Made by a program: the position numbers and the translations under genes. Below, in pieces: positions 1,342 to 36,560 of a stretch of 64,000 bases of DNA. This DNA comes from Loktanella sp. M215 (GTDB taxonomy: Bacteria > Pseudomonadota > Alphaproteobacteria > Rhodobacterales > Rhodobacteraceae): NCBI RefSeq assembly GCF_021735925.1, contig NZ_WMEA01000004.1, forward strand, positions 186,001-250,000, in the 5' to 3' direction. Positions within the stretch are counted from its first letter, which is position 1. Every line of letters starts with the position of its first letter. Below the pieces are notes generated by a model. It was not told the DNA's origin. It made no database searches and was given only the letters and a program-made list of their open reading frames with translations.

Positions 1342-2676
1342 CTATTTTGGGACGTGTTTCACGCAAAAGCCGGTCGGAATATTGGTGCCGCTTTCCGCAA
1401 AAGTGCCAACGGGCAGATCGTGCCATTCGCCTACGGTGTTGCCGTGGTCGTAGTAGGCGCTGGCGGGCAGGATGCACGCCAGACGGCCACCGGGGCGCAA
1501 GAATTTCAAGGCGTGGTCCAGATGCTTTTTGTAGTGCTGGCCGTAGAAGGGCGGATTCATCAGGACCACATCAAACCGCGGATCAGGTGCGACCTGTAGA
1601 AAATTGGTGGTCATAACGTGGTGGCCCTTGGCGCGAGCCTGGGCGGCGCGTCCCGCGTCATATTCTACGCCGGTCACGATCACCGGGGAACGATAGCGCC
1701 GTTCGGTCGGGTGGTTGTGCCAGTCGGCCAGCATGTCCATCAACTGACCGTCGCCGCACGACGGTTCCAGAATAGTCTCGCCACCGGACAGGTGCAAAGC
1801 GTCGATCACCAGTTTTGCGGCCTTGCGGGGCGTGGGGTAAAATTGAAGGTCGCGGGCAACTTCGGTGCTGGGTCGCCGTGCTTCGGTCTCTGACGGCGCG
1901 TCGGGCAGAACCTCGCCGTAAAATTCCGCAAGCGCCCGGTTAATGTCCAGCAAGCTGTGCTTATCAAAGATCAGGTGCGCGTTGCCGTTCTGGAAAACCT
2001 GGACCTTGCCGCCGTTGAAATCCGACTCTCGATGCCGCTTCGCCTCGGCCAGCATGTCCTCAAACTGGCGGTAGTTGTAGCGGGGTTCGCCGCGATAGAC
2101 GGCAAGGGCGTTCAAGGTGTCCTCCACCCGCTTGCGGCCCCAACTGTTCCAGCCGGTCGCATAGTTCACGATGATACGCTTGGGCAGGCCAGCAACACCG
2201 ATCCGAACGCGGCTGTGACTCTTATAGGCGGGATCAAGGTCGCAGAAACATTCTGCCAGACCTTTGAGAATGTGAAAGCGTGGGTCCAACAGATAAGCCC
2301 CGAACACTTCGGCAAGGTTCTCCAACGTGAAAGGCAGGGGCGTCGTCAGTTTCAATTCGAGCTGTTCGCGGTCCTTGGCTGATGCGATCTTGGCAATGTC
2401 CAGACCTTCGTAAACGTGCTTCCAAGCTGACCGCAAAAGGGCAATCCGAACGTCCTTTTCATAGAGGCGCGGTGCGGTGGAAAAGACAGTGCTGCCGAAT
2501 TTCCCGCCGATGCTGGCGGCGGTGTTAATCGCGGTTTCGGAGTCGTTGAACGCGGCGATTGCGCCGGTGATGCTTTCCGCCTTGTCGTCATACTCGGCCA
2601 CAATGTCGGACAAGCTGCGCCGCAATACGGGCGCGGCATATTCCGGCGTTTCTCCAATTCGTGCGTGGGCGTTCAT
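1342..2676 (-). CDS. DUF4942 domain protein with N6-adenine DNA methyltransferase domain
   Basis: A 444-residue protein. Residues about 60-260 match the DUF4942-type N-terminal region. The C-terminal part is a SAM-dependent methyltransferase: FYPTP at 279-283, the motif I-like EPSCGDG at 304-310, and the catalytic NPPF at 374-377, typical of N6-adenine methyltransferases. It probably methylates adenine in DNA. No restriction endonuclease is adjacent, so it may be an orphan or anti-restriction enzyme of a mobile replicon (inference). It is the last gene of an operon; its start overlaps the previous stop by 4 bases. Confidence 0.85.
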   Translation of the reverse strand: MNAHARIGETPEYAAPVLRRSLSDIVAEYDDKAESITGAIAAFNDSETAINTAASIGGKFGSTVFSTAPRLYEKDVRIALLRSAWKHVYEGLDIAKIASAKDREQLELKLTTPLPFTLENLAEVFGAYLLDPRFHILKGLAECFCDLDPAYKSHSRVRIGVAGLPKRIIVNYATGWNSWGRKRVEDTLNALAVYRGEPRYNYRQFEDMLAEAKRHRESDFNGGKVQVFQNGNAHLIFDKHSLLDINRALAEFYGEVLPDAPSETEARRPSTEVARDLQFYPTPRKAAKLVIDALHLSGGETILEPSCGDGQLMDMLADWHNHPTERRYRSPVIVTGVEYDAGRAAQARAKGHHVMTTNFLQVAPDPRFDVVLMNPPFYGQHYKKHLDHALKFLRPGGRLACILPASAYYDHGNTVGEWHDLPVGTFAESGTNIPTGFCVKHVPK

Positions 2677-3551: not shown

Positions 3552-3803
3552 TCAGATGCAATTCGCGGCGTAGGCGGCGGAATCCTCGTAGCGCAGGATC
3601 GGGTCGCCGGTTTCGGTCCAGCCGCCCCAGCAAGGGCCGATAAAACCCGCCATTGTCGGGTGTCCTTGCAACTCGGCGCGGGTGCGGGGATTGGCGGACG
3701 TGCCGGTTATTTCGGCGTAGTTCTCGGTCGCCCACGTCGTCAGGCAATCCGTGAAAACTGCGGTCTCGCCGTCGTCGCTTTTGGTGACAATCTGGTAAGC
3801 CAT
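3552..3803 (-). CDS. Small hypothetical protein, first gene of an operon starting at repeat copy 1
   Basis: An 83-residue protein starting at the ATG at 3803, preceded by AAAGGACC. This ribosome site is shared, with small changes, by the DUF3768 gene at 8733: both genes begin at the edge of the duplicated 530-bp element. No domain recognised. It leads the operon ending in the methyltransferase. Confidence 0.55.
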   Translation of the reverse strand: MAYQIVTKSDDGETAVFTDCLTTWATENYAEITGTSANPRTRAELQGHPTMAGFIGPCWGGWTETGDPILRYEDSAAYAANCI

Positions 3804-3865
3804 GATCTTCGGTCCTTTGTGGTGGTGCCGCGTTTCCGGTCTGGTGCCGAAAATCGGGCGAGGGG

Positions 3866-4085
3866 TCAGGCGAGGAAGCGCGAAGCGCGCCCCTCTCCTG
3901 AAAACTTGCCTCCCGGCGAGGGCAGGGGGGGAACCGCCGCAATTCTGAAATCAAAGCCAAAGGGGAGGGGGATCACCCGGCCTGCACACAGCCGCAGGCG
4001 TAGGAAGGACGGGGACACCCCTTTGGGTGCCGTATTTCAGGGTTGCGGTGGGGGACCGGCGGTCCCCTTCTTTCTTTCTTTTCTT
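3866..4085 (+). ncRNA. Candidate structured RNA, copy 1
   Basis: The plus strand can fold as follows: a hairpin at 3866-3901 (TCAGGcGAGG with CCTCtCCTGA); a long stem P1 pairing 3934-3951 with 4034-4051 (18 pairs including G-U wobbles); inside it P2, CCAAAGGGG 3957-3965 with CCCCTTTGG 4018-4026; an inner hairpin CCTGC/GCAGG; and then a terminator. The wobble pairs only work if the plus strand is the RNA. I do not recognise a known RNA family. The 5' end is not defined by sequence. Confidence 0.55.
4051..4085 (+). terminator. Intrinsic terminator of the structured-RNA candidate
   Basis: A perfect hairpin (GGGGACC, loop GGC, GGTCCCC; 4051-4067) is followed by an 18-base pyrimidine tract rich in T. 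The same hairpin is present at 8981 in copy 2. Orientation is plus strand, away from the operon at 3803. Confidence 0.7.
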
Positions 4086-4406
4086 GGCGGTGCAGCGGCG
4101 TTCGGCTTGTCCGAACCCCGCGCCGCGCCCCAGCGATCGTTACCCGCAAGGGCGCATCGGCACGGACCAGGACGACCATGGCCGAAGGTTTGCGCACTGG
4201 CTCGGAGAGACAGGGCGCGGGCCATTCGGACAGGGAGGATGGGCCGGGACGTTGCGGGCGGAAGCCGGTCTGCCGGCTGGAGCCTGAGAAGCGCGGTGAC
4301 ACGCCCAAAGGGCGGGGCAGGGGCTATGACGCCTTACAGGGGATTCAATCTTCTGCGGCCTGTGATACGCCAATCTTAGGTATCAAATCAGCCGGAAAAC
4401 GACCGC

Positions 4407-6409: not shown

Positions 6410-8257
6410 TCAGGCCATACCTTCGGGAAGCCATGCGTTGATCCGGTCGATCTGATCTTCCGACAGGCCAAGGGCTGTGCGTGTCGCCGGGTCCGCAAAC
6501 AGGCTTTCCAGCTTTGCGGCCTTCTCGCCCTTCTTCAACTGCTCGAAGTTGGTCACGGTGGGGTGTCCTGCGACCAGTCCCAGAAGGTCGCTCCACAGAT
6601 CATTGAGGTAAGCGCCGTTCACGCGACCAAAGAAGTTCTCGGCGGTGGGTGTGAAGGTGTCGCGGGTGCGCTTGCTCGTCAGCTTGTCGATCATCGCGCC
6701 AAGGTCAGGGCTGCCGATGGTCAGGTGCGCGACCAGATAACGGTTCAACAGGTCCATGATCTTTGCATCGCCCCGCTTGCGAAACTTGGCAAACGCGGCG
6801 GCATGGTCGCGGTTGAACGGGCTGCGGTCGTCGGTGTCACAAACGGTCAGGCGCTTGTCCAGCACATAGCCGGTTTCCGTGGTCGGGACGTTCGGCACTT
6901 CGTCCGTGCGGACGCCGTAAGCGCGGTCGTATCCCATCTTCCCGCAAAGCTGGAAGGCCAGAAGATGAAGCGCCAATTTCGGGTCGTCCAGCATCGCGTT
7001 TTGACGTGCGCCGGTGCCGATCCGGTCCAGATCGCCGCGCAAGGTGTCGGAGATAGGCGACTTCGGCGCGGCCTCGGTCGTGGCATGGCGCGACGGCTGC
7101 AAGATACCTGCTTCAATGGCTGCGGCCTTGTCCTCGGCCCGGATGAAACCGGCCTCGACCTTCACGCTGCCGTCGTTGGTGACATAGATCACGACACCGC
7201 TTGTGGCCCGCTGCTCGTCGGTAAAGTCGCCGTCCCTCTTGGTTTGCAAGGCGTCCAGCTCAGTTGTGCCTTCCTCGTCCAGTGCATCGCCGTTCGCTAG
7301 TTCCACAAGTGCGTCATAACGCTCGGCCTCGGCCTCGGTCAGTTCGCCTTCGACGGGATAGACCTTGCCGAATTTGCGGTCCTGATCGAATTGATAGCTG
7401 ATGTAACCATCAGTGATTGCCTCGGCCCATTTCCAGCCATACGCGGCGGAGTAGTCGGCTGCGGTCTGGGTCAGCTTGGCGGCGAAAACCTCGTCCAGAA
7501 TGGCGGGGTCGTCAAAGGTCGTCACGTCAGCAAACAGGTCGCCACCCATGCGACCTCCTGCGGCGCTGTAGTCTGCCTCTCCGACAAACACGGCGCGGCG
7601 GTCGGTGCCTTTGACGCTGCCGGGTTTCAGGCGGGTCTTGATGGTGTAGTCGTTTAACCCGCCGTAGCCTTTGGCGATTTGCTCGATGTGAAGGGCCAAC
7701 ACCTCCAAGGTAAGAGCCTCGTCGTCGCTGATCGTGAACGCGGCTGCTTGGGACAGGCTCACGCTGCCGTCCCGCAAAGCGTCCAGCACCGGGGCGGGCA
7801 GATTGGACAGGGCCAGGCGGCGGTAAACGTGCTTCTCGGTCACGCCATAAGCGACGGCAATATCTGCGACCTTCACGCCGCGCTTCTCCATCGCGCCAAA
7901 GTCGCGGATTTCGTCTGCGGGGTGCAGATCCTCGCGCTGCGCGTTCTCGCTCGTCGCCCAAAACACGGCGGTCGCCTGATCGGGGGCCATACGGACGGTC
8001 ACGATCTGAAACCGGGGGTCGTCCTGCAACAGCGCCAAGGCGCGGTAACGGCGTCCACCCGCCACGATCCCGACCTTGCCAGTAGCATCGCGCAGGCCTG
8101 CCGGGCTTTGAATGAGGCCATGCTCTTGAATATTCGCGGCAAGTTCGACGATGGCATCGTCGTTCAGGATGGTGCGGGGGTTGATGTCGGAGAGGTAGAG
8201 GTCAGAGAACGGAATTTGCTCGTCGGTCGCTGTGGTGATCTGGGTCTGGTTGGTCAT
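6410..8257 (-). CDS. ParB/Spo0J-like protein, plasmid type
   Basis: A 615-residue protein, much longer than a standard ParB. Residues about 15-110 form a ParB N-terminal domain: INPRTILNDDAIVELAANI, GLIQSP, GGRRYRALALL, ENAQREDLHPADEI. A helix-turn-helix follows at about 125-150 (VADIAVAYGVTEKHVYRRLAL). The long C-terminal region has no recognised domain. No ParA ATPase is adjacent, so it may act as a regulator or plasmid-maintenance protein rather than a partition protein. Second gene of its operon. Confidence 0.8.
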   Translation of the reverse strand: MTNQTQITTATDEQIPFSDLYLSDINPRTILNDDAIVELAANIQEHGLIQSPAGLRDATGKVGIVAGGRRYRALALLQDDPRFQIVTVRMAPDQATAVFWATSENAQREDLHPADEIRDFGAMEKRGVKVADIAVAYGVTEKHVYRRLALSNLPAPVLDALRDGSVSLSQAAAFTISDDEALTLEVLALHIEQIAKGYGGLNDYTIKTRLKPGSVKGTDRRAVFVGEADYSAAGGRMGGDLFADVTTFDDPAILDEVFAAKLTQTAADYSAAYGWKWAEAITDGYISYQFDQDRKFGKVYPVEGELTEAEAERYDALVELANGDALDEEGTTELDALQTKRDGDFTDEQRATSGVVIYVTNDGSVKVEAGFIRAEDKAAAIEAGILQPSRHATTEAAPKSPISDTLRGDLDRIGTGARQNAMLDDPKLALHLLAFQLCGKMGYDRAYGVRTDEVPNVPTTETGYVLDKRLTVCDTDDRSPFNRDHAAAFAKFRKRGDAKIMDLLNRYLVAHLTIGSPDLGAMIDKLTSKRTRDTFTPTAENFFGRVNGAYLNDLWSDLLGLVAGHPTVTNFEQLKKGEKAAKLESLFADPATRTALGLSEDQIDRINAWLPEGMA

Positions 8258-8337: not shown

Positions 8338-8733
8338 CTAGTATTCGTGGCGCTGCATGACGGTCAGGACGCGGCGGGTCGTAGCGGTGTCCTCGGGGGC
8401 AGCACTGCCGAACGTGTACTCGGTGTCGTAGAGGTCGATCTTCCAGAACAGCTTGACCGTCTCACCCGCTTCGATTGCCTCGAAAGCGCCAAAGGTGTGA
8501 TCCCCATAAGGGTCGTTGTCCTCGGTGAAGGTGTCGAACGTCTGCACGGCCCGCATGATCTGCACCTGTGCCCCTGCGGACAGGCTTGCCACGGCGCGCG
8601 TTACGATGATCTGGCCGGGAACGCTGACGTCTGCGCCCCATGTCTTGCGGAAACGGTCGTTCTGCTCTGCGATCTTCGCGGCACGGTCAATCTCGGCCTG
8701 CTCATCTGCCGACAGGGTGGTTTGGTCGTTCAT
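8338..8733 (-). CDS. DUF3768 domain protein
   Basis: A 131-residue protein; the start at 8733 was chosen because of AAAGGACC upstream and the exact match to the copy 1 arrangement. Family hallmarks are visible: NDRFRKTWG, VTRAV, FDTFTEDNDPYGDHTFGAFE, FWKIDLYD and VLTVMQRHEY. DUF3768 proteins are common on plasmids and islands of Rhodobacteraceae; their function is unknown. First gene of the operon leading into the ParB-like protein. Confidence 0.8.
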   Translation of the reverse strand: MNDQTTLSADEQAEIDRAAKIAEQNDRFRKTWGADVSVPGQIIVTRAVASLSAGAQVQIMRAVQTFDTFTEDNDPYGDHTFGAFEAIEAGETVKLFWKIDLYDTEYTFGSAAPEDTATTRRVLTVMQRHEY

Positions 8734-8795
8734 GGTCTTGGTCCTTTGCGGTGGTGCCACGTGTCCGGTCTGGTGCCGATACTCGGGCGAGGGGT

Positions 8796-9017
8796 CAGGC
8801 GAGGAAGCGCTTCAGCGCGCCCCTCTTCTGAAACCTTGCCTCCCGGCGAGGGCAGGGGGGGAACCGCCGCAATGCTGAAATCAAAGCCAAAGGGGAGGGG
8901 GATCACCCGGCCTGCACAAAGCCGCAGGCGCAGGAAGGACGGGGACACCCCTTTGGGTGCCGTATTTCAGGGTTGCGGTGGGGGACCGGCGGTCCCCGTC
9001 TCGCTTTCTTTTTCTCT
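8796..9017 (+). ncRNA. Candidate structured RNA, copy 2
   Basis: The same fold as copy 1. P1 pairs 8864-8881 with 8964-8981 (one G-G mismatch here), P2 and the inner hairpins are kept, and the 5' hairpin keeps its stem with a G-C to G-U change while the loop differs (TTCA instead of GAA). Stem-preserving changes with loop changes support selection on RNA structure. Confidence 0.55.
8981..9017 (+). terminator. Intrinsic terminator of the structured-RNA candidate, copy 2
   Basis: GGGGACC, loop GGC, GGTCCCC (8981-8997), then a T-rich pyrimidine tract. The hairpin is identical to that of copy 1, while the tract has drifted. Confidence 0.7.
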
Positions 9018-9264
9018 GAGCGGTGCAGCGGCGTATCGCGCTTGCGCGAACCCCGCACCGCGCCCCAGCGATCGGAACCCGTCAGGGCGCATCGGCACGG
9101 ACCAGGACGACCATGGCCGAAGGTTCGCGCACTGGCTCGGAGAGACAGGGCGCGGGCCATGCGGACAGGGAGGATGGGCCGGGACGTTGCGGGCGGAGGC
9201 CGGTCTGCCGGCGGGAGCCTGAGAAGCGCGGTGACACGCCTACAGGGCGGGGCAGTGGCCATGA

Positions 9265-9548
9265 CTTTCGATCTATCCAAGTGAGAATTTCACCCGTTCA
9301 AGTGTCGGCGGCCAGATGGAAAAGGCCCTACCCGCACGGCAGGTCTTGCCTTCTTCAGACGCACTTACGGATCACAGCTCACGTTCAGACTTCAATGAAT
9401 GCCGAACAATGGGTGGATGCTGAACGTTCAACAATCCCAGATCGATACGGAACAGAAGAAATGCAGTTCAAAGATTTTGCATATTCACCCTACGATCGAG
9501 GACGTTTTGATCTACCTGCTTTTTAGTGCTTAATCAGGAATTGCAAAA
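9265..9548. other. Gap after repeat copy 2
   Basis: No convincing gene. A 43-codon frame from the ATG at 9395 to 9526 has no clear ribosome site and no recognised product. The region marks the change from the mobile-type module to ordinary chromosome-like genes. Confidence 0.4.
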
Positions 9549-35354: not shown

Positions 35355-36560
35355 TTATAGGGAAGTTACTAACTCTGAAAGCTTGCCAGTGGCCTCCCCG
35401 CCACCCTCTCTCGACGCTGGCAGGGTGAGCCTGAAACAACTGCCTTCACCGACTGTACTGGTCACGTTCAGGCTGCCACCTTGCATTTCGGCAAGGTTGC
35501 GGGAAATTGACAATCCCATCCCTGTACCTCCGGCGCGCCGCACTGCGCTGGAATCGATCTGATAGAAGGCTTCGAAGATGCTGTTGAACTCAACTTCATA
35601 GATACCCGCGCCGCTGTCTTGTATTTCAAAGACAACCGTTTCGGCCTCGGTCTTGATCATAAGCCTTACGAATCCCTGGTCGGTAAATTTGATGGCATTG
35701 CCGACCAGATTAAACAGTATCTGACGCGTCCTGACTTTGTCGGCGAACACTGTAACGGCATCTTGTGTCACTTCAAATGACAGGCCCTTTTCCTGCGCCA
35801 GCGTCCTGAGTTGATATATGACAGGGTCCGCGATGTCCTTAATGTCGCAGATCTCGCACGCGACTGACAGATTTCCTGATTCGATCTTCGCGGAATCCAG
35901 CATTTCATTGATCAGGTGCAGGAGATGTTCGCCAGATTTGACCATGCGTTCCATCAAGTCTGAAAGTTGTGCGAACACGTCATCCAGCAAAGTTCTGATC
36001 TCAGCGGGCGATCTGTCGTTGCTCTCCAGCGCAGCCAAGAGTGTTTTGGAGGATTTCAAAAGCCGGGCACTATTGGCAAGGCGCGCGACGCCCAGGATGA
36101 CCGTTAGGGGGGTTCGCAATTCGTGGCTCAGCACCCCTATAAAATCTGTTTTGGCTTTGTTGGCCGCTTCCGCCTGGGCGAGACGCTCTTCCTGTTCGAC
36201 CTGGCTGGTGATGTTGCTGAGCGTGGCCATATACCGGTCTGGCCCAAGCCTCTTGATCGAAATGGACAGGACCTGCGGCCGTGCACCCCGTCGCGCGTCT
36301 CCCGGATCGATGTTGATGCGATAACCGTCGTGGATCGTGCCGTGATCGGCTGAAAATGCGGCTACGGCGGTGCGCAGATCCGTTGCGTGGCGTTCCATGA
36401 GATGGAAGAGGTTCGTCGCGTCCCTGTCAGTGGCGAGCGGTATCAATAAATTCATTGCATGGGGATTGACCAGGCTCATTCGCCCTGTCGTATCGAATTC
36501 GATTAATCCCACGGGGCAGGAATAAAGGAAACTCATAAGGCTATCGTCGTCAGATGTCAC
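35355..36560 (-). CDS. PAS-type histidine kinase downstream of the PYP-like gene
   Basis: A 401-residue protein from a GTG at 36560 with AGAGG upstream. Residues 1-125 look like a PAS domain (CPVGLIEFDTTGRMSLVNPHAMNLL), followed by a HisKA region with H146 (FIGVLSHELRTPLTVIL) and an HATPase with N-box VGNAIKFTDQG, IQDSGAGI and GGTGMGLSIS. Soluble. Only 12 bases separate it from the photoactive-yellow-protein-like gene, so the two are co-transcribed and the small protein is the likely sensor or partner (inference). Confidence 0.92.
   Translation of the reverse strand: MTSDDDSLMSFLYSCPVGLIEFDTTGRMSLVNPHAMNLLIPLATDRDATNLFHLMERHATDLRTAVAAFSADHGTIHDGYRINIDPGDARRGARPQVLSISIKRLGPDRYMATLSNITSQVEQEERLAQAEAANKAKTDFIGVLSHELRTPLTVILGVARLANSARLLKSSKTLLAALESNDRSPAEIRTLLDDVFAQLSDLMERMVKSGEHLLHLINEMLDSAKIESGNLSVACEICDIKDIADPVIYQLRTLAQEKGLSFEVTQDAVTVFADKVRTRQILFNLVGNAIKFTDQGFVRLMIKTEAETVVFEIQDSGAGIYEVEFNSIFEAFYQIDSSAVRRAGGTGMGLSISRNLAEMQGGSLNVTSTVGEGSCFRLTLPASREGGGEATGKLSELVTSL

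Follow-up and report, generated by a model that had tools for sequence, protein, structure and literature searches.

The element and its setting in Loktanella sp. M215

The present analysis concerns a 64-kb window, by which we mean the whole stretch of DNA analysed (positions 186001–250000 of a 456-kb contig of Loktanella sp. M215), and an element that occurs in it twice, at 3803..4330 and 8733..9265, in each case with the plus strand as the folded strand and with a core that we call type A. The copies align end to end, with 92.5% identity, and, as the original prediction had it, each adjoins a minus-strand gene, extending to its start codon (ATG at 3803 and 8733). The first gene read away from copy 1 (3552..3803, minus strand) encodes 83 amino acids with no Pfam family, and the same minus-strand run contains a DUF4942/methyltransferase gene (1342..2676, minus strand); the first gene read away from copy 2 (8338..8733, minus strand) is a DUF3768 gene, with a ParB-like gene next after it (6410..8257, minus strand).

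The stems that had been proposed were recovered at the stated positions. The closing stem (5′ arm 3934..3951, 3′ arm 4034..4051, plus strand) is paired at all 18 positions in copy 1, by 15 Watson-Crick and 3 G-T pairs, but at only 17 of 18 in copy 2, which has one G-G, and the wobble pairs in it take the G-T form on the plus strand, as predicted. The inner stem (3957..3965 with 4018..4026), in which the last bases of the 5′ arm are an invariant GG, is paired at 9 of 9 positions in both copies. The conserved core was located by our model R1 at 3952..4031 in copy 1 (83.4 bits) and 8882..8961 in copy 2 (84.6 bits), and comprises P1, an AGGGGGA bulge, a TC-CCCGNCCT stem and a variable apical loop. 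Its stem P3 pairs 3976..3983 with 4006..4013, with one mismatch in copy 1 (G3980-A4009), and is closed in that copy by T3973-A4015 and C3974-G4014 (alignments A1 and A2). A 5′ hairpin, H1 (3907..3924), carries GGCGA in or beside its loop when read by eye, and similar hairpins bearing GGCGA were seen in many family members, also by eye and uncounted. The predicted GC hairpin with a pyrimidine tail, H3 (4050..4068), is present and terminator-like in copy 1, with 3 terminator-like sites against 1.0 expected around that copy and 2 against 0.5 around copy 2, although its T-run is not a feature of the family. Compared with dinucleotide shuffles, the plus-strand folds of copies 1 and 2 had z of −5.1 and −4.3 with DNA parameters and −5.4 and −4.5 with RNA parameters, and in none of these four tests did any of 200 shuffles fold as well; the minus-strand folds were also non-random but weaker (DNA −4.0 and −3.0, RNA −4.4 and −4.2).

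The remainder of the element is a distal module of 226 bp (4105..4330 and 9040..9265), 93% identical between copies, which occurs on other plasmids also without the type A core. In one such case (L194) it lies upstream of an ArdC-like gene with a B-like core recognised by eye, and a module without the type A core is also found in a 4.0-Mb contig of the same genome (C1, at 2290612); around the module at loci L193 and L007 there was neither an A nor a B core. A match of this module to the Rfam family gntR-DTE scored 18.5 bits against a gathering threshold of 63.6 and was rejected.

The two copies exist, but a count of two understates the element in this genome: the 456-kb contig contains five near-full-length copies, at 36018, 43839, 180878, 189803 and 194733, three with the type A core and two with a different core, type B, and there are partial copies on this contig and on other contigs of the genome. 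All five lie on the plus strand, 9.6–26 kb on the 5′ side of two PF03432 relaxases, which are both on the minus strand (26457 and 168774) and 142 kb apart. To the right of each relaxase lies a separate set of elements, which gives the contig the look of a single replicon with two conjugative modules.

Family, core architecture and folded strand

No description of this element family was recognised in the literature searched, which was mostly open-access. The family had been described as unrecognised, with a check of Rfam suggested, and in that check no Rfam family matched the 64-kb window at the gathering threshold, nor did anything match over the cores at a permissive threshold. By distant blastn against 72,556 plasmid records, some part of the element was detected in 100 records, with at least 80% covered in one place in 1 record, and the core region was detected in 83 records, with at least 80% covered in 10. 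These matches were mostly alphaproteobacterial, with outliers that include Thiothrix, Sedimenticola and Nitrosospira, and the 83 core-bearing plasmids were typed as 37 conjugative, 24 mobilizable and 22 non-mobilizable. Relatives detected with the core model likewise lie on plasmids, mostly conjugative or mobilizable, and on large contigs, from Alphaproteobacteria and some beta- and gammaproteobacteria. Model R1 under strict filters matched 8 of 289 Alphaproteobacteria genomes and 12 of 398 Pseudomonadota genomes, draws that both contain the window's own genome. The exact core pattern occurred at at least 120 loci in genome contigs; the 80 pattern matches listed included a Cerasicoccus isolate as well as metagenome-assembled genomes with the labels Saprospiraceae and Nitrospina, whose binning may be wrong. 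The loci include near-duplicates, such as a Thiothrix plasmid present twice and two viral contigs (L210 and L215) that look like one phage.

Nineteen diverse cores (alignment A1) share one architecture, consisting of a closing stem whose sequence is free, an invariant GG/CC, the AGGGGGA bulge, a conserved short stem (TC-CCCGNCCT / AGGNNGGGGA) and an apical loop that is free in length. The covariation of the core is overwhelming. In A1, double-sided changes occur in 12 of the 14 pairs of the closing stem, with a score of 0.428 against 0.147 in shuffled alignments and at most 0.133 in slides, while the number of pairs with a double change was 14 against 11.7 shuffled, a value equalled by 33 of 500 shuffles. 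In alignment A2, which has 110 rows of model matches drawn from 100 of 120 loci picked by the pattern, there were 370 double-changed cells against 99.8 shuffled, a score of 0.457 against 0.127 and at most 0.078 in slides, and 95.9% of cells were paired. Because these loci were picked by an exact pattern over part of the core, conservation of the pattern columns in A2 is built in, but P1 and the 3′ half of the core are not in that pattern; A2 and A3 were fitted to the model structure, and A1 and A6 were not. A lack of covariation in a larger alignment had been offered as grounds to reject a structured element, and the strong covariation seen here leaves that part of the original prediction standing.

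As to which strand folds, symmetric scoring of 129 cores gave 45 G-T against 14 A-C pairs in the closing stem P1 and 80 G-T against 2 A-C in the variable pairs of P3, and because G-T pairs so far outnumber A-C pairs it is the plus strand, in the window's orientation, that folds. The leader hairpin, with 86 G-T and 73 A-C, is strand-neutral. Energy models do not separate DNA from RNA as the folded molecule: for P3 the plus strand is favoured with either parameter set, the mean pairing probability for the consensus on that strand being 0.82 with RNA and 0.66 with DNA parameters, and for P1 the RNA parameters slightly favour the minus strand.

Adjoining genes, relaxases and a sister core

The distance from core to gene is narrow. 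Among 158 model matches with a pickable opposite-strand frame (of 169; 4 had none and 7 lay inside the window or too close to an end), the opposite-strand start codon lies 80–119 nt from the core in 132, with a median of 100, and 140–179 nt away in 15 more, as chosen by a start-codon picker with a weak pull towards 100 nt; for the window copies, which are outside the 158, the distance by coordinates is 161 nt. When plain longest frames were used instead (n = 159), the nearest gene on the left was on the minus strand in 117, on the plus strand in 28 and absent in 14, whereas the right-hand gene was on the plus strand in 74, on the minus strand in 71 and absent in 14. The core is thus placed narrowly with respect to the start of the left, opposite-strand gene and has right-hand genes on either strand, and the element therefore belongs to the opposite-strand gene, whose template is the folded strand. 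A Pfam scan of 114 of the 139 distinct first genes gave ArdC_N (30), DUF932 (15), HTH_ParB (14), DUF3768 (10), ArdA (8) and N6/N4 methylase (4), with single matches to DUF2958, DUF736, DUF4942, VbhA and others and the rest without a listed family. The ArdC of R388 is reported to be needed in the recipient and not in the donor (PMC7213743).

Promoter-like sequences were not enriched. With an E. coli sigma-70 matrix, the 95th percentile of shuffles was exceeded in 0 of 129 elements for the minus strand, in 2 of 129 for the left region of the plus strand and in 5 of 129 for the right-hand region, the last two at or below chance. The window copies had 0 promoter sites and a terminator-like hairpin in both, and in the family the best 8 nt after the core contained a mean of 3.95 T against 3.70 shuffled, near chance. 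The absence of enrichment on either strand fits silence of the element in double-stranded DNA.

Orientation was surveyed by searching for model R1 and relaxase family PF03432 in 50 chosen records behind the loci, with relaxase matches below the Pfam cut-off also used in four (G334:C14, G347:C62, G360:C15 and W02). There were 86 elements on contigs shared with PF03432, 74 of them within 40 kb of the nearest match. The commonest arrangement, in 58 of the 74, is an element on the 5′ side of the relaxase and on the opposite strand; a further 6 lie on the 3′ side and on the same strand, where the folded strand also runs away from the relaxase. Another 6 were classed as 3′-side and opposite-strand, comprising four on G347:C62, one on G333:C22 and one on W04, the last consistent with the away-orientation if one goes round its 17-kb circle in the opposite sense. 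The remaining 4, in W01, G331, G342 and G361, are on the 5′ side and the same strand, only 1.3–3.4 kb from the relaxase, and the other elements within 40 kb there are consistent. Overall the folded strand runs away from the relaxase in 65 of 74 and towards it in 9, and contigs with at least two type A elements had all of them on one strand in 28 of 34. Since it mostly points away from the relaxase, the folded strand would be the T-strand, and relaxase orientation likewise suggests that the plus strand is the T-strand in the window's plasmid. The bias partly follows gene orientation and is therefore not independent of the gene spacing. The elements at 1.3–3.4 kb from a relaxase (L172:7015, L169:3664, L170:9814 and L171:10217) are inverted with respect to the others nearby, and the one in W01 (pCB4) lies before a MerR-family gene that points away from the relaxase.

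Type B was recognised in six sister copies from the same genus (L004, L005, L015, L020, L021 and L022), which hold it in the same frame at 85–88% overall identity to copy 1 but with an entirely different apical core, as if the core had been swapped as a cassette. Depending on the query, type B is present on 273 to 290 plasmid records, including plasmids of Pseudomonas, Enterobacter, Klebsiella, Citrobacter and Xanthomonas. Its spacing to genes is looser than that of type A, because only five of eight plasmid places examined have a minus-strand gene to the left, starting at 138–317 nt; these genes are ArdC-like (pP80_h), DUF932 followed by ParB-like (pPUV-11 and pTTS12), a DNA-binding protein and a transposase. 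Of the three places without such a gene, two have a plus-strand gene and the third is a 2.5-kb RepL plasmid with one annotated gene; in pPFS (L197), a RepL plasmid of Pseudomonas fragi of 2547 bp, the type B core lies about 430 bp before repL. The type B closing stem also covaries over the 26 rows of alignment A6, with a score of 0.247 against 0.095 shuffled and 61 double-changed cells against 30.5; in the same alignment the pairs with a double change (9 against 8.7) and the further pair types (25 against 22.5) do not stand out. Of 26 type B copies (L197–L222), 18 have a TTGA within the 3′ arm of their stem, in differing registers, which could be a −35-like box in a duplex; no consistent −10 was found among the 26.

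The type B core was also present in 20 viral contigs. Of ten whose proteins were scanned, seven carry proteins of ssDNA phages, namely replication proteins (phrog_942, phrog_702, G2P/CRI), a microvirus-type capsid (phrog_514), and a secretin or a Zot-family protein, the last an assembly protein in inoviruses. We counted L210 as an eighth ssDNA-phage-like contig because the start of its Rep resembles that of L213. Type B is on the majority-coding strand in 8 of 8 of these contigs (coding fractions 0.67–1.00), which represent fewer than eight independent cases because some are close relatives; the other 12 viral contigs, among them one with a terminase (L203), had no consistent strand bias (0.18–1.00). 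Annotated phage records gave three type B matches, all on the plus strand: two named microvirus records, with 4 of 6 and 6 of 6 coding sequences on the element's strand, and RHph_N39. In microviruses and inovirus-like phages the packaged strand is generally the coding strand. The exact type A pattern was found in a single stretch among 2.9 million viral contigs, and with one match type A is not shown in ssDNA phages; the whole element matched nothing among phage records at E 1e-5.

Possible roles of the element

Patterns detected are consistent with a site that acts on single-stranded DNA. We consider the element to be an ssDNA initiation element, a Frpo-like promoter and/or a primer site, for establishment genes, and would put the probability of this at roughly 0.6; it probably allows early genes, those for anti-restriction among them, to be turned on before the incoming plasmid has become double-stranded. 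A fold on the template strand near early-type genes, on what appears to be the T-strand, together with the lack of a recognisable dsDNA promoter and a sister core in phages, is what such an element predicts, and ssDNA as the functional form is suggested both by how the folded strand lies relative to the relaxase and by the finding of the sister core in ssDNA phages. During conjugation the plus strand, as the presumed T-strand, would enter the recipient and fold there into the conserved hairpin, which may be recognised through its invariant bulge and loops. RNA synthesis would then start at the element and proceed leftwards along the T-strand into the minus-strand operon, allowing early expression of establishment genes (anti-restriction, methylases, ParB-like), and the element would probably also give a primer for second-strand synthesis and be off once the plasmid is double-stranded. 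Both the RNA start at the element and the enzyme responsible are things that we infer. Several observations are against the ssDNA initiation element: the 9 of 74 elements near a relaxase that point towards it, the lack of −10/−35 boxes, phage evidence that comes from type B and not from the window's type A, the three of eight type B plasmid places with no minus-strand gene close to the left, a strand bias partly owed to gene orientation, better support of P3 by RNA than by DNA parameters, and the strand-neutral leader hairpin.

Known systems offer partial parallels. A paper by Masai and Arai (1997) reportedly has both transcription and primer RNA in its title. For F and ColIb-P9, genes are described as expressed early from the incoming ssDNA; the Frpo fold is reported to rebuild −10/−35 boxes, and fusions downstream of a deleted Frpo1 or Frpo2 of F showed no significant rise in transconjugants (PMC9849209). 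Like the Frpo/ssi of these plasmids, our elements are repeated, structured and upstream of SSB/anti-restriction-type operons, apparently in leading regions, to judge from their genes and from where the relaxase lies; in both cases the template strand is the one that folds, and here, as argued above, it is probably also the T-strand. Unlike Frpo, the element has no canonical −10/−35 boxes (0 of 129) and a different core, and type B occurs also in ssDNA phages; blastn of cores A and B against F 48000–68500 gave no match at E 1. Because the canonical boxes and the similarity to F are missing, we say that the element works like a Frpo or a single-strand origin and do not file it as one. The IncN CUPs (pKM101/R46) carry promoters and are likewise repeated, conserved elements upstream of ard and other leading-region genes; repeats were seen in the R46 leading region by blastn comparison, and cores A and B had no match in R46 1–50000. 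CUP sites are bound by the repressor ArdK (PMC6289460). EGeRS1 of the pLS20 family is similarly a conserved structured region, of 400–600 bp, upstream of ardC/establishment operons, for which no constitutive promoter was reported (PMC8708921). Its authors judge it highly unlikely as an ssDNA promoter because the T-strand is the non-template strand in those Gram-positive plasmids (PMC8708921), whereas relaxase orientation suggests the opposite here.

An alternative explanation is a pure complementary-strand initiation site (ssi/sso) that primes the second strand on incoming ssDNA through primase or RNA polymerase, with gene proximity incidental. Such sites and phage complementary-strand origins are active as folded ssDNA in one orientation, a likeness that we draw from strand bias, type B being on the majority-coding strand in all eight ssDNA-phage-like contigs and type A biased to the presumed T-strand. 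The occurrence of type B on those contigs and on the 2.5-kb RepL plasmid, where complementary-strand priming is needed, fits this explanation, as does the sharing of one strand by all type A elements in 28 of 34 multi-element contigs. A single site per molecule would be enough, yet copies precede several operons, mostly at 80–119 nt from a start codon, and many products of the adjoining genes are for anti-restriction or establishment; type A is tied to genes at a narrow distance in a way that sso/ssi are not. The annotated origin of phage G4, the only known origin compared, has no resemblance to the element core when read by eye. On balance we regard priming without gene expression as unlikely, though it is the foremost of the alternatives.

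Two further explanations seem less probable still. The view taken in the original prediction was of a structured plus-strand RNA with a terminator, which as a non-coding RNA might, for instance, be a regulator acting in trans, and the plus-strand structure with its wobble bias, the good support of P3 under RNA parameters and the terminator-like hairpin in the window copies agree with it. The structural half of that view has survived, but promoter-like sites are not enriched, T-runs in the family are near the shuffled level, there is no Rfam match and placement is tied to a minus-strand gene, which starts only about 100–160 nt from the core, so that a left-side plus-strand promoter would overlap it; we do not think that the element is a plus-strand RNA gene. 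It could instead be a dsDNA control region, or a 5′ leader or insulator of the minus-strand operon, resembling EGeRS1, which stops read-through without a promoter (PMC8708921), or a repressed promoter such as a CUP. The narrow distance to the gene and a strand-neutral leader hairpin by the ribosome site are compatible with this, but the conserved core folds on the template strand and not in the mRNA, and promoter-like sites on the minus strand show no enrichment within the element or on its right; we give it about as little weight as the RNA.

Types A and B might be two cores of one initiation superfamily, read by fold and not by −10/−35 boxes and common to the leading regions of proteobacterial conjugative plasmids and islands and to microvirus- and inovirus-like genomes, which plasmids coupled to anti-restriction genes and which is read only while the DNA is single-stranded; we advance this tentatively, as somewhat short of an even chance. 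Two surveys for Frpo are reported to have mainly used BLAST of five known sequences and candidates with a −35/−10 consensus in a few islands (PMC11541004, PMC12826799). Searches of that kind would miss this family. If the element does the same job as Frpo, it would be a switch for establishment genes on many alphaproteobacterial and other plasmids. It would then mark leading regions and the direction of transfer from sequence alone and predict new anti-defence genes beside it, and one DNA fold would link conjugation with the replication of ssDNA phages.
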